Part shown: piece after piece, positions 22,428 through 28,104 of the stretch
Layout: each line of letters begins with the position of its first letter
How positions within the stretch are numbered: the stretch's first letter is position 1
Virus record (IMG/VR): IMGVR_UViG_3300046009_011196
Coordinates: 1 to 28,909 of that record
DNA from: a virus
Reading direction: 5' to 3' (one strand)
Length of the DNA stretch: 28,909 nucleotides
The notes under the pieces: generated by a model
Told to the model about the DNA's origin: nothing
Seen by the model: only the letters and a program-made list of their open reading frames with translations
The model's database searches: none
Translations under genes and position numbers: made by a program

Positions 22428-23069
22428 ATGTTTATTCCCAAAATCCAAGACAAAGAAGCTATTTCCATTTTCAACAATCGCACAATCCGCGTTACTCGTG
22501 GGGTACACGGGTTTGTATTGGAAGACGTGACCCACGCAGGCAAAAAAGGCAAACTTTGCGCACGTGTGTCTGTGCAACATGAAAACTTTGGTGGTTTTTA
22601 TCAAGTTGATGGGCTTTTGGAGGAAGCTTTAAGCTTGCTCTCTTTGGCCGCTGATTTGGCTGATGATGGCGCTTGGCAAGAACATGAAAACAGACGCGAC
22701 AGTTTTGATGAATACGAGATTTACACGAGTGTTAAAAAATCGATCCGCGTTTGGCCTGCTGACTTGGAAGTCATTAAACCGCTGAAAGAAATGCCTAAGC
22801 GTTGGAATCTAGAAACCGCGATACGCGCCTTGGTAAACGGTCAGTTTAAATCTAATACCGTGAAATGCACAGGTTATTACACAGATGACTATCATGGCGA
22901 TGCCGCACGCAATTACGAAAAAGGGGCTATTGATGCCCTTAACCTTGCTCGTGAAGTGTTCACAAGTCCGTCGGGGTGGTGGTCTTCTGTAAATAAAGAA
23001 AACCGCGTTTTTCTCTGCTGCCATTCGTTTAACAATAATGAGTTTGTTCTTGATTTAAACGCAGCCTAA
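22428..23069 (+). CDS. Plus-strand protein of unknown function (213 aa)
   Basis: A 213-aa protein with an excellent expression signal: TTGACT-17-TATGAT and AAAGGAG 9 bases before ATG. The N-terminus looks beta-rich (RTIRVTRGVHGFVLEDVTH), the centre has an acidic helix (DLADDGAWQEHENRRDSFDEYE), and a tandem of basic and Cys residues appears late (KCTGYYTDDYHGDAARNYE, VFLCCHSFNNNEF). No membrane segment or family was recognised. It opposes both flanking blocks, suggesting an early-expressed accessory or takeover protein. That role is inference. Confidence 0.72.
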   Translation: MFIPKIQDKEAISIFNNRTIRVTRGVHGFVLEDVTHAGKKGKLCARVSVQHENFGGFYQVDGLLEEALSLLSLAADLADDGAWQEHENRRDSFDEYEIYTSVKKSIRVWPADLEVIKPLKEMPKRWNLETAIRALVNGQFKSNTVKCTGYYTDDYHGDAARNYEKGAIDALNLAREVFTSPSGWWSSVNKENRVFLCCHSFNNNEFVLDLNAA

Positions 23070-23141: not shown

Positions 23142-23297
23142 ATGACCGAAGACAAGCGCAAAAACAACCACCGCCCCCACAAGTACGATGAACCCAAAAC
23201 CGTGCGCATAGCGGCCAAGCTGACCCCCACAGGCTACGCTTTTTTTAAACAACTAGGGGGCTGGGACTGGATAGAGAAACAAGCCAGGAATATGTAA
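23142..23297 (+). CDS. Small basic plus-strand protein (51 aa)
   Basis: A 51-aa protein, MTEDKRKNNHRPHKYDEPKT at the start and AKLTPTGYAFFKQLGGWDW further on, ending in IEKQARNM. A basic tail followed by a short strand (TVRIAAKL) and a helix is a layout seen in ribbon-helix-helix type DNA-binding proteins, but the match is weak. Its leader carries the same 14-base TGTCAGTTAAAGGA found before the 213-aa gene, which includes the ribosome site. It is probably the second gene of the cassette. Role unknown; a small regulator is possible. Confidence 0.6.
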   Translation: MTEDKRKNNHRPHKYDEPKTVRIAAKLTPTGYAFFKQLGGWDWIEKQARNM

Positions 23298-24436: not shown

Positions 24437-24797
24437 GTCCAGCCACCTGGGCGCTAATCACCTGAATGACAGCCCCCTTGCCGCTTTCTTCGACAATATT
24501 CAGGGTGATCAGTTCGGTGGCGTAACTATGCGTAGTCAATGTGGCGTTACCGTCTGAATCCACTTCAAAAACAATTTTCCCAACAACGGCTTGGTTGCAC
24601 CCAGCCTCCTCAAGCTTCATTAACAGAATGCGGTTCTGAAGCCCCTTCAGGTCCATCCTTTCCCGAAGCGCTTCATTCTCTTTTTCCAGAAACTTCATTG
24701 CTTCCAGTTTTAAATATTTACGGTCAAGCAACACACTCACAGCAACAATGGCCACAATGCCCAATAAGGCCAGCAGAATAAACAGGTCAAAAACCAT
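24426..24797 (-). CDS. Single-pass membrane protein with coiled coil
   Basis: A 123-aa protein with an N-terminal hydrophobic segment (residues about 4-24, FILLALLGIVAIVAVSVLL), a charged coiled coil (residues about 26-66) and a small C-terminal domain (AVVGKIVFEVDSDGNATLT). GGAGG lies 9 bases before ATG, which overlaps the upstream stop as TAATG. No family recognised. In a replication block it could tether replication or interact with the host membrane; that is inference. Confidence 0.66.
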   Translation of the reverse strand: MVFDLFILLALLGIVAIVAVSVLLDRKYLKLEAMKFLEKENEALRERMDLKGLQNRILLMKLEEAGCNQAVVGKIVFEVDSDGNATLTTHSYATELITLNIVEESGKGAVIQVISAQVAGHER

Positions 24798-25243
24798 TAG
24801 TTATTTCCTCCAGCGCAAGCAACACAACAAACAAACCTGGCTTGTTCATATTTTTGGGCGTACAAACTTCTAAGGGGCTTTAGAAGCCTTTCCGGCTGAT
24901 CGGACTCTCTGCCAACCAACCCCTTAATCACAATGCCCACCCCAAACATCTCGCACCGGCAACAAATCTCTTCAATCAACCCTTTGATGTAGTCGTATTC
25001 ATTCATTGAAGAAACATCCCCGCCGCCACGGGCTTCAGGGTTAAGCAGTGCTGTGCCCAACACCCTGACCCACATCCTAATAGCGCCTTTTTCGTGACTT
25101 GAAAGCCGTTTTACGGTTTCCCGGTAAGCTTTCACCAGCGCTTTGACCTCTGGGGGCCAGGGCTTTACCGTTGCCACTGGCAAGGGGATAACTTGCCCGT
25201 TTAAGGGCTCAACAGGCTTTTGTATATATTTCAGATTCCACAT
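24797..25243 (-). CDS. Hypothetical protein (148 aa)
   Basis: A 148-aa protein with a helix-rich middle (PEVKALVKAYRETVKRLSSHEKGAIRMWVRVLG), a CCRC cluster near residues 94-97, and a Cys-rich end (FVCCVACAGG). ATG 25243 has a CAGGAG site seven bases upstream, just beyond the T17/hairpin tract. No family recognised. It is the first gene read after the putative origin on the minus strand. Confidence 0.62.
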   Translation of the reverse strand: MWNLKYIQKPVEPLNGQVIPLPVATVKPWPPEVKALVKAYRETVKRLSSHEKGAIRMWVRVLGTALLNPEARGGGDVSSMNEYDYIKGLIEEICCRCEMFGVGIVIKGLVGRESDQPERLLKPLRSLYAQKYEQARFVCCVACAGGNN

Positions 25244-25259
25244 CGTATTTACTCCTGAA

Positions 25260-25298
25260 TTTTTTTTTTTTTTTTTGGGAGGGGGGTACCTACCCCCC
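25260..25298. other. 17-T tract followed by G-rich hairpin
   Basis: Seventeen T (25260-25276) run directly into GGGAGGGGGG and then an 18-base hairpin GGGGGGTA-CC-TACCCCCC (25281-25298). In neither direction does a T-tract follow the hairpin, so it is not an intrinsic terminator. It borders the iteron array and is a plausible DNA-melting or origin-associated element. Such long homopolymers are also prone to sequencing length errors. Confidence 0.6.
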
Positions 25299-25313
25299 AG
25301 ATTTTTGAAAAAA

Positions 25314-25468
25314 CGTGAACCTTTTTTGCCTAAACCTTTTGCAAGACTAACGTTTTAACCGATTTAAAAACGTGAACCAAACGTGAACTTTTCGGAAAAA
25401 ACGTGAACTTTTCGGAAAAAACGTGAACTTTTCGGAAAAAACGTGAACTTTTCGGAAAAAACGTGAAC
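25314..25468. repeat. Iteron array, candidate replication origin
   Basis: The heptamer CGTGAAC occurs seven times: at 25314, 25371, then 25382, 25402, 25422, 25442 and 25462, the last five at an exact 20-base step. Four full units of the form ACGTGAACTTTTCGGAAAAA fill 25381-25460, each holding the small palindrome TTTTC-G-GAAAA. The array is AT-rich and ends exactly at the primase stop codon. Helical-repeat-phased copies next to a primase-ATPase gene resemble iteron origins that bind an initiator. Which protein binds is not known. Confidence 0.7.
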
Positions 25469-28104
25469 TAACTCAGTGCCTCCAATGACCGAAGCAAAGC
25501 GTCCTCGCACAAGTAAACACACAGAGTTGTTTTCTTTCCTTCATAAAGTTTTATATTCCGCTTCCCCTCTTTTCCGCTGGGGATGGCCTGGGCTTCACGG
25601 AGCATGCGCCCCAGCCGGTTCGGGGTGATGTCAAACGCTAATCGGGCGTCTTCACGAATTTTGCCCGTCACCTTTTTGGCCGTGCTGCCCAAGGGATACC
25701 ATTCCGGGTGGCCTGGCATCGGCTTGAGGTCGCCCGTTTGAATCAGTTCCAGAATGGCATCCAGAATTCGGCGCGTGTTTTCATCCGATTGGCCAAAGCC
25801 GTTTTTTTCCTCGCCCTTTTCCAGCGCCAGCGCCTGCAAGCGCACCAGAAAGCTATCCTGGGGGAAGCCGTCGTCTTCATCGGCCATGTAAGCCAGCGTT
25901 AACAGTGGCGTCCACAATTCGCCTTCGCGGTTGTAGAGCCCGTCAAAACTGGGGGACTGCACATAGTTTTTGTGAATGCGGTCAAACTGGGTGAGTAGCC
26001 ACACGTAAATCAGATCGCGAATCTCGGCGCATTCACGCTCCCATTCGGCCCTTGTTTTGGCCATGTCCAGAATGGTCGCCGCTGTCTCCTGACTGCACCG
26101 CAACGACTCAATAATGATTGAGCGGTCCAGTAGCGTTTGATTCGACAAGCCCATGCCGCCGAAAATCTTGGGCGAAAACACCTCAAAATCACGACTTTCA
26201 TAGTCCTGAACCCCATCACGTTTAACGGCCTGGTTTCGCCATGCGCCTGAACCCAACTTGTACCCACTCAGGGCAATCTGAAAGGCTTCTTGGTTATGCT
26301 CGTCAATTTTGTTAAAGCTTTGCGCCTCGTCAAAGAAGACAGTGCAGCCAGACGATTCCACCAGCCGAAACATCACGCTGGGGGTGATGCTAATGCTGGC
26401 CAAACTGTTGTAACAGAGGTGTTGCATCAACTCCATGCTGTTGCTTTTCCCGCTGCGCTTCATCCCGGTAAAACACAAATACGGATACACCCCGAAAATC
26501 CACGCGGCATAAGTCCCCAGCGCGTAAAAGCCCATCAGGTCATAATCGGCGGTGTTTTGGTGCCAGACGTATTTTTTCGTCATCGCCACAATGCGCCGAA
26601 TGATATCGCCTGTTTTGGGCACTTCCGCCGCCCCCCTCAAAAAGCGATCCACCGACCGGCCCGACCAGGCCCCGCCCCGTGATTTGATAATGCCCAGGTG
26701 TGGGGGGTCGCCTGTCAGTTCGTCGGGGGATCCGACCAACTGCTTTTCAGGGCTGTAGCCCGCCTGCCCTAACTTAACGGTCGATTTAATCAGCACGGGT
26801 TCAACGCCCTTGACCTGTTCCCCTTCTTTGTTCGCCCGCACCGTGTGGCCATAGATACAAACGTGGGCAGTTGACTGGTCAGCGCCAAAGGTAAACCCGC
26901 AATGCAGCCGTTTCACTTCTTCAAGCTCAAACGACACATCCACCAGGTCAAAGTTTTCTGGGGCGGCCTTGGCTACGGCCTGCCTGTCTTTCAGCCACCG
27001 GCTAAACTCTTGCCTTACCGTGGTGCCAGGAATCCCTAGCCGGTCTTTTACGCGCCGAAACGGTTCCTCGCGCTGCGTTTCGGTCAACGGTTGCAAATAA
27101 GGCCACAACCCTTCCAGGTCCGCCGCGCTGGTCAGCCGGTCAATCTTCCAGTTTATGGGCGGCTTGGCCCCATTGCGCAGCGCGTCAAAGGCCCCTTGAA
27201 GCCCCTCGCCCCGGTTGGCCAAAAACCACTCGTTAAAGTCCTTCACCCCGGCGGGCAGGCTTACCAGCAAAATGTCGGCTTTCACCCCAGCCCCCAGCAT
27301 CGCCGCCACCCACTTTTCAGCGGCCTTGGCCCCAGCCGGGTCATTATCCGGGCAAATGTAAATTTGCTTGCAGCGCTTGAAACGCTCCGGGTGCTGCATG
27401 CCGCTGGTGCCCACCACCCCCACAGCTGGCAGGCCAATTTCTACCCCGGAAAGGGTATCCGGGTGGCCTTCGAATACCCAAATGGTGTCAGTGATGGCAT
27501 CCTGATTGTAGAAGTGGGCAACGTCCACCCCCTTCAGGTGCAAATACTTCTGCGGGCTGGGGTTCCAAGGCGCCAGCCGTCCGCTTATCTGCTCTACCCG
27601 GCCCCGAATCACCATGGGAAAAATGAACCGGCTGTCAAAGTAGCTGTTCCCCTCAAAGCGGTTGCTGGCATCAGCGTAGCCAACGTGCATCTCACGCAGC
27701 GTCTTTTCACTGAACCCGCGCCCCATCAGGGTGCCCAGGGCTTGCTGGTGCTGGAACAGCGTCTCTTGATAATGCCGCACCATGGCCCACCGTTGCGCCT
27801 GAATCTGCTCCTCTAGCGTGCGGGCTTGTTCGGCATCGGCCTGGGCTTGGGGGGTCAGTGCCACCCCGGCCCGGTTGGCCAGTTCTTTCAGGGCTTCGGC
27901 GCGGCTTAACCCGTCACGCTGTTCCAACAGGCTGAATACGTCTCCGCCCGCGTCGCAGGCCTTGCAGTGCCACAAATTCAAATCATGATCCAGGTCACAA
28001 CTGGGGTGATTGTCCTGGTGAACCGGGCAACGGATCCGCTTTTCGGTCGTGCCCAGCAAGTCGGCAAGCGTCACCCGCCGTTTAATGTCATCAAAAATTG
28101 TCAT
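25468..28104 (-). CDS. Fused primase-ATPase replication protein
   Basis: An 878-aa protein. Residues 26-50 form a CHC2 zinc ribbon (Cys26, His29, Cys47, Cys50). A TOPRIM domain follows with Glu212 in VFEGHPD and the DND motif at 253-255 in ICPDNDPAGAK. The C-terminal half carries a P-loop GMKRSGKS (547-554) and Walker B VFFDEA (589-594), an AAA-like arrangement rather than the RecA-type helicase of T7 gp4. Primase fused to an ATPase would make primers and possibly unwind DNA or act as initiator. The stop codon lies at the end of the iteron array. A weak AAGAG ribosome site lies 7 bases upstream of ATG. The final helical domain is unassigned. Confidence 0.88.
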   Translation of the reverse strand: MTIFDDIKRRVTLADLLGTTEKRIRCPVHQDNHPSCDLDHDLNLWHCKACDAGGDVFSLLEQRDGLSRAEALKELANRAGVALTPQAQADAEQARTLEEQIQAQRWAMVRHYQETLFQHQQALGTLMGRGFSEKTLREMHVGYADASNRFEGNSYFDSRFIFPMVIRGRVEQISGRLAPWNPSPQKYLHLKGVDVAHFYNQDAITDTIWVFEGHPDTLSGVEIGLPAVGVVGTSGMQHPERFKRCKQIYICPDNDPAGAKAAEKWVAAMLGAGVKADILLVSLPAGVKDFNEWFLANRGEGLQGAFDALRNGAKPPINWKIDRLTSAADLEGLWPYLQPLTETQREEPFRRVKDRLGIPGTTVRQEFSRWLKDRQAVAKAAPENFDLVDVSFELEEVKRLHCGFTFGADQSTAHVCIYGHTVRANKEGEQVKGVEPVLIKSTVKLGQAGYSPEKQLVGSPDELTGDPPHLGIIKSRGGAWSGRSVDRFLRGAAEVPKTGDIIRRIVAMTKKYVWHQNTADYDLMGFYALGTYAAWIFGVYPYLCFTGMKRSGKSNSMELMQHLCYNSLASISITPSVMFRLVESSGCTVFFDEAQSFNKIDEHNQEAFQIALSGYKLGSGAWRNQAVKRDGVQDYESRDFEVFSPKIFGGMGLSNQTLLDRSIIIESLRCSQETAATILDMAKTRAEWERECAEIRDLIYVWLLTQFDRIHKNYVQSPSFDGLYNREGELWTPLLTLAYMADEDDGFPQDSFLVRLQALALEKGEEKNGFGQSDENTRRILDAILELIQTGDLKPMPGHPEWYPLGSTAKKVTGKIREDARLAFDITPNRLGRMLREAQAIPSGKEGKRNIKLYEGKKTTLCVYLCEDALLRSLEALS

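Follow-up and report, generated by a model that had tools for sequence, protein, structure and literature searches.

The stretch of DNA analysed here (the window) is the whole of IMG/VR virus record IMGVR_UViG_3300046009_011196, 28,909 bp, which is classed as linear and is incomplete. It carries seven same-oriented copies of an 8-bp motif, ACGTGAAC, clustered at the 3′ end of a gene encoding a primase-ATPase, P0001. The array is probably an iteron origin of phage replication, read by P0001 itself. This reading, drawn from sequence comparison, rests above all on the family link between 3′ repeat clusters and the ATPase genes related to P0001.

Composition and position of the repeat array

The elements of the array are given by position in the window and strand.

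25313..25320, + strand: iteron copy 1, ACGTGAAC, isolated.
25370..25377, + strand: iteron copy 2, ACGTGAAC, 11 bp ahead of copy 3.
25381..25468, + strand: iteron copies 3 to 7, exact 20-bp period (25381, 25401, 25421, 25441, 25461); TTTTCGGAAAA comes after each of copies 3 to 6.

The array covers 156 bp (25313-25468) and holds all ACGTGAAC sites of the record (25313, 25370, 25381, 25401, 25421, 25441 and 25461; all + strand). The expected count was 0.87, and seven copies were reached in none of 100 shuffles. A 9-mer search allowing one mismatch retrieved the identical seven sites and none besides. An earlier note on this DNA had reported seven copies of CGTGAAC, five of them at an exact 20-base period. 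This is borne out by the position count (25314, 25371, 25382, 25402, 25422, 25442 and 25462, + strand; the last five at exactly 20 bp) and by Tandem Repeats Finder (perfect 20-bp unit, 4.6 copies, 25379-25469). The same note had placed a palindrome after every copy; TTTTCGGAAAA follows only the four copies from 25382 to 25442 and is lacking after those at 25314, 25371 and 25462. It had rightly located the end of the array at the stop codon of the primase-ATPase gene; more exactly, the last base of the array (25468) is itself the closing base of the TAG of P0001, and the last copy overlaps the stop.

Four of the 20-bp units are identical, as would be found after recent slippage, but a neutral minisatellite generated by replication slippage and devoid of function is very improbable. 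Two additional ACGTGAAC copies with unrelated flanks are located outside the tandem unit, so that the core has persisted where the unit is absent. In other lineages, too, clusters of unrelated sequence are placed at the 3′ end of RepAM-like genes (see below).

DNA folding of the array was no better than that of shuffles. RNA folding gave z = -2.1, owed in part to an adjacent GC hairpin. A-tract phasing was moderate (R 0.58-0.81, varying with the assumed helical repeat) and suggests bending only. No match was found in Rfam, and a search for the exact array elsewhere retrieved none. CGTGAAC arrays found in other viral contigs are mostly coding repeats; a few are located inside other replication-like genes, one of which has a weak HTH_36 match. 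In other phages with primases, no clear array adjoins the gene.

The primase-ATPase P0001

P0001 and its domains (residues in brackets) are encoded as follows.

25468..28104, - strand: P0001, 878 amino acids, a fusion of DnaG-type primase and DUF3631/RepAM-like ATPase; may act as initiator, helicase and primase.
27853..28032, - strand: CHC2 zinc-finger domain (25-84), Pfam E 1.6e-10.
27223..27480, - strand: TOPRIM domain (209-294), Pfam 3e-9.
25873..26607, - strand: RepAM-like ATPase (500-744), Walker A GMKRSGKS at 547, Walker B VFFDE at 589.
25471..25872, - strand: C-terminal 134 residues, putative iteron-binding domain, without significant match; predicted local distance difference test (pLDDT) of the model, 41.

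The description of the gene as CHC2-TOPRIM-ATPase in the earlier note agrees with both Pfam matches and with the Walker-type ATPase half. By its domain content, the N-terminal third of P0001 is a DnaG-type primase. In PADLOC, the primase half also gave a match to a reverse-transcriptase defence model, in the DnaG-like part of that model, which probably reflects general DnaG similarity.

In database searches, the C-terminal half gave weak matches to DUF3631 proteins and to plasmid proteins. DUF3631 (PF12307) is described as RepAM, the replication initiator of actinomycete pMEA300-type elements (PMC3218068). A RepAM profile was built from eight DUF3631 proteins. Residues 500-744 of P0001 matched it with 66.6 bits in hmmsearch (8e-21), and none of 999 shuffled versions scored. 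The match in hhalign (97.7% probability over 227 columns) has a core that includes Walker A and Walker B. On these profile matches, the ATPase half of P0001 is a distant relative of the DUF3631/RepAM initiators.

Close relatives of P0001 were found neither in viral contigs nor in genome contigs; a wider genome scan retrieved only relatives of the N-terminal primase and one known Acinetobacter plasmid. The predicted models of P0001 are of low confidence (pLDDT 35 and 41; modelled without alignment).

Repeat clusters at the 3′ ends of DUF3631 genes

Clusters were sought around the 3′ end of each gene by counting the most repeated 8-mer, strands merged, in sliding 250-bp windows. The loci were actinobacterial and phage loci, plus ten gammaproteobacterial genomes found by a family search. 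A cluster was called when the octamer count was at least 4, a threshold chosen after a first look.

Such clusters were found at 11 of the 18 testable DUF3631 loci and at 2 of 112 other gene ends from the same loci and the window (Fisher 8e-10, a P value only loosely meaningful given the post-hoc threshold and the fact that four of the 11 positive loci are related Streptomyces elements). They straddle the 3′ ends of the genes. P0001, with seven copies at its own 3′ end, has the same location. The positive lineages and their octamers are: Streptomyces, CCGCTACC; Nonomuraea, AGCCGTAA; gammaproteobacteria, GTTCCGGA, CGGTCACA and AACGCTAC; one Pseudomonas phage (Phipami28), ATCCGCGA. A further octamer among these clusters is ACGGATCG. 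The octamers are unlike between lineages, which argues against simple descent and is what a co-evolving initiator and site would give. The apparent rule for DUF3631-type initiators is that the repeats are kept where the initiator gene ends, on its 3′ side. This suggests a rule for finding origins in the DUF3631-like family, namely to inspect the 3′ end of the gene.

DNA flanking the array and proposed origin

The features that adjoin the array are the following.

25217..25276, no strand: the 60 bp of lowest stability in the record, including T17 at 25260-25276; candidate DNA-unwinding element.
25281..25298, no strand: G+C hairpin GGGGGGTACCTACCCCCC, separating the T tract from the array; resembles a terminator for + strand transcripts only.
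24797..25243, - strand: next downstream gene, 148 amino acids, no family match; its start is 70 bp past the array.

The layout general to iteron origins is present: several sites of the same motif, an initiator-like gene and an AT-rich region, the latter being the stretch of lowest stability in the record and adjoining the array. P0001 would bind the seven sites, probably through its C-terminal domain. Its ATPase would assemble as a helicase ring on the AT-rich T17 region (25217-25276) and would unwind this flank, and the CHC2-TOPRIM half would lay primers. A host DNA polymerase would then presumably copy the circle, the direction of replication being likewise presumed. No DnaA box was found near the array, as expected if the initiator is self-sufficient. 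No replication initiator other than P0001 was recognised in the sequence examined. The uncharacterised DUF3631-like ATPases and the repeat array would thereby become one testable replicon.

The run of T17 and the perfect G6/C6 hairpin together span 25260-25298; in minus-strand transcripts, A rather than U comes after the hairpin.

The 224-bp gap between P0001 and the next gene, which has the same direction, contains the array. This position upstream of a gene would suit an operator array, at which a phage repressor or activator bound to the repeats would control the downstream genes (25243 and on). Such a role is unlikely. The region yielded no sigma-70-like promoter, candidates being fewer there than in shuffles, and all copies are at one place, with none near other genes. 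Simple operators usually need fewer than five strictly phased copies.

Several observations weigh against an origin read by P0001. The earlier note had proposed an initiator-type origin, to be checked by a turning point of the cumulative GC skew. The initiator part is supported by the RepAM-related ATPase half and by the 3′-end clusters of DUF3631 genes; the turning point is absent, the skew falling steadily through the array (a weak test, the genes being nearly all on one strand and the record incomplete). P0001 is distant from the core of the family and falls below the curated Pfam cut-off of DUF3631 (16.0 bits vs 24; E 0.014). Its C-terminal 134 residues do not significantly match the C-terminus of RepAM in an alignment of only 8 sequences. 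Most DUF3631 clusters have both orientations and irregular spacing, whereas the array of P0001 is one-directional and phased. A 3′ cluster is missing from most of the distant relatives of the ATPase (Pseudorhodobacter, methanogen virus PhiF3, Sulfolobus pXZ1, 3 of 4 Acinetobacter plasmids). In the Acinetobacter plasmids, the repeats TGACAYGC lie between the par and rep genes, not at the 3′ end as in P0001. The search for relatives retrieved none with this array.

Phage genome context

All genes but two small ones are carried by the minus strand. The two on the + strand (23142-23297 and 22428-23069) have no family match. Among the genes recognised are those for the small and large terminase subunits, a portal/head-tail adaptor protein, the major head protein, tail proteins, an ERCC4-type nuclease, a D12 methyltransferase and an amidase-like protein. 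An open reading frame at the contig end (28713-28909) contains a repeated WAAAADAAWAAAADA-like sequence (12-bp-type DNA repeat).

Two contigs overlap the record at 99.96% and 99.99% identity; the array is outside both. One near-identical contig reaches 1.7 kb beyond window position 1 (contig positions 17434-19108); a tyrosine integrase is encoded there, beyond some 560 bp of DNA that is mostly non-coding. The integrase gene beside the window suggests a temperate phage. Contigs with 58-61% identical terminases were found to be without the primase-ATPase.

A parS-like partition centromere, on whose direct repeats a phage ParB would act to keep the prophage as a low-copy plasmid, is improbable. 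The parS of RedRock has this format, direct repeats of an 8-bp motif in one direction, and in mycobacteriophages Miko and Rachaly a parS-type centromere is located immediately downstream of repA (PMC7157519), which counts for such a role. Against it, no ParA/ParB family was found among the scanned proteins of the window and of the adjoining 1.7 kb of this incomplete genome; the tyrosine integrase argues for integration and not for plasmid upkeep; and the family pattern ties 3′ clusters to the initiator gene.

Comparison with known systems

An intragenic origin of the lambda-O type was rejected: the array is outside the coding sequence. Origins downstream of the replication gene are known in other elements. 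The origins recognised by SaPI Rep and SCCmec Cch2 consist of direct repeats immediately downstream of the respective helicase gene (PMC7581432); these two proteins belong to another helicase family and act with separate primases, and binding has been shown for them, whereas for P0001 it is predicted. The oriV of SGI1 is immediately downstream of rep (PMC7433901), and the origin of pRN1 is downstream of its replication gene (PMC4234260).

In satellite phage P4, the primase, the ATPase and the repeats form one adjoining module, as here, with crr directly 3′ of alpha. The N-terminal primase region of P4 alpha is 24% identical to that of P0001, and both are of the CHC2/TOPRIM type. Assignment of P0001 to the P4-alpha type was nevertheless rejected, since the helicase domains differ: the SF3 helicase and origin-binding domain (D5_N, Pox_D5) and DUF5906 are present in P4 alpha and absent from P0001 up to E 5, and P4 alpha compared with the RepAM profile gave 2% probability, no match. 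The P4 type 1 repeat TGTTCACC and the P0001 iteron read on the minus strand, AGTTCACG, have GTTCAC in common, which may be due to chance in this one comparison of short words. The repeats of P4 are found in both orientations at two sites, those of the present phage in one orientation at one site. P4 is a satellite, whereas the phage of this record encodes a virion.

The same fusion of TOPRIM and RepAM-like ATPase is found in proteins of small Acinetobacter plasmids (8.9-20 kb), with about 22% identity to P0001 over the full length. Their genes are the largest on these plasmids, where no further rep gene was recognised.

RepAM of the actinomycete integrative elements (pMEA300) has an ATPase core related to that of P0001 and, in common with it, a repeat cluster at the 3′ end. 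RepAM stands alone as a protein and is at times encoded beside a Prim-Pol gene (PMC3218068; also at loci examined here), whereas in P0001 the ATPase is fused to a DnaG-type primase. The clusters of the RepAM family are made of octamers in mixed orientation; the P0001 array is one-directional and 20-bp phased. The chances are about even that the record represents a tailed temperate phage with an undescribed one-protein starter (DnaG-type primase and RepAM-type ATPase, with phased iterons at its own 3′ end), belonging to a broad and largely undescribed class of DUF3631 replicons (plasmids, integrative elements, phages) in which the origin stays at the initiator gene's 3′ end, initiator and site diverging together. 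Replicons of phages, plasmids and integrative elements would then be linked by an initiator ATPase whose associated primase varies: Prim-Pol in actinomycetes, DnaG-type in P0001.
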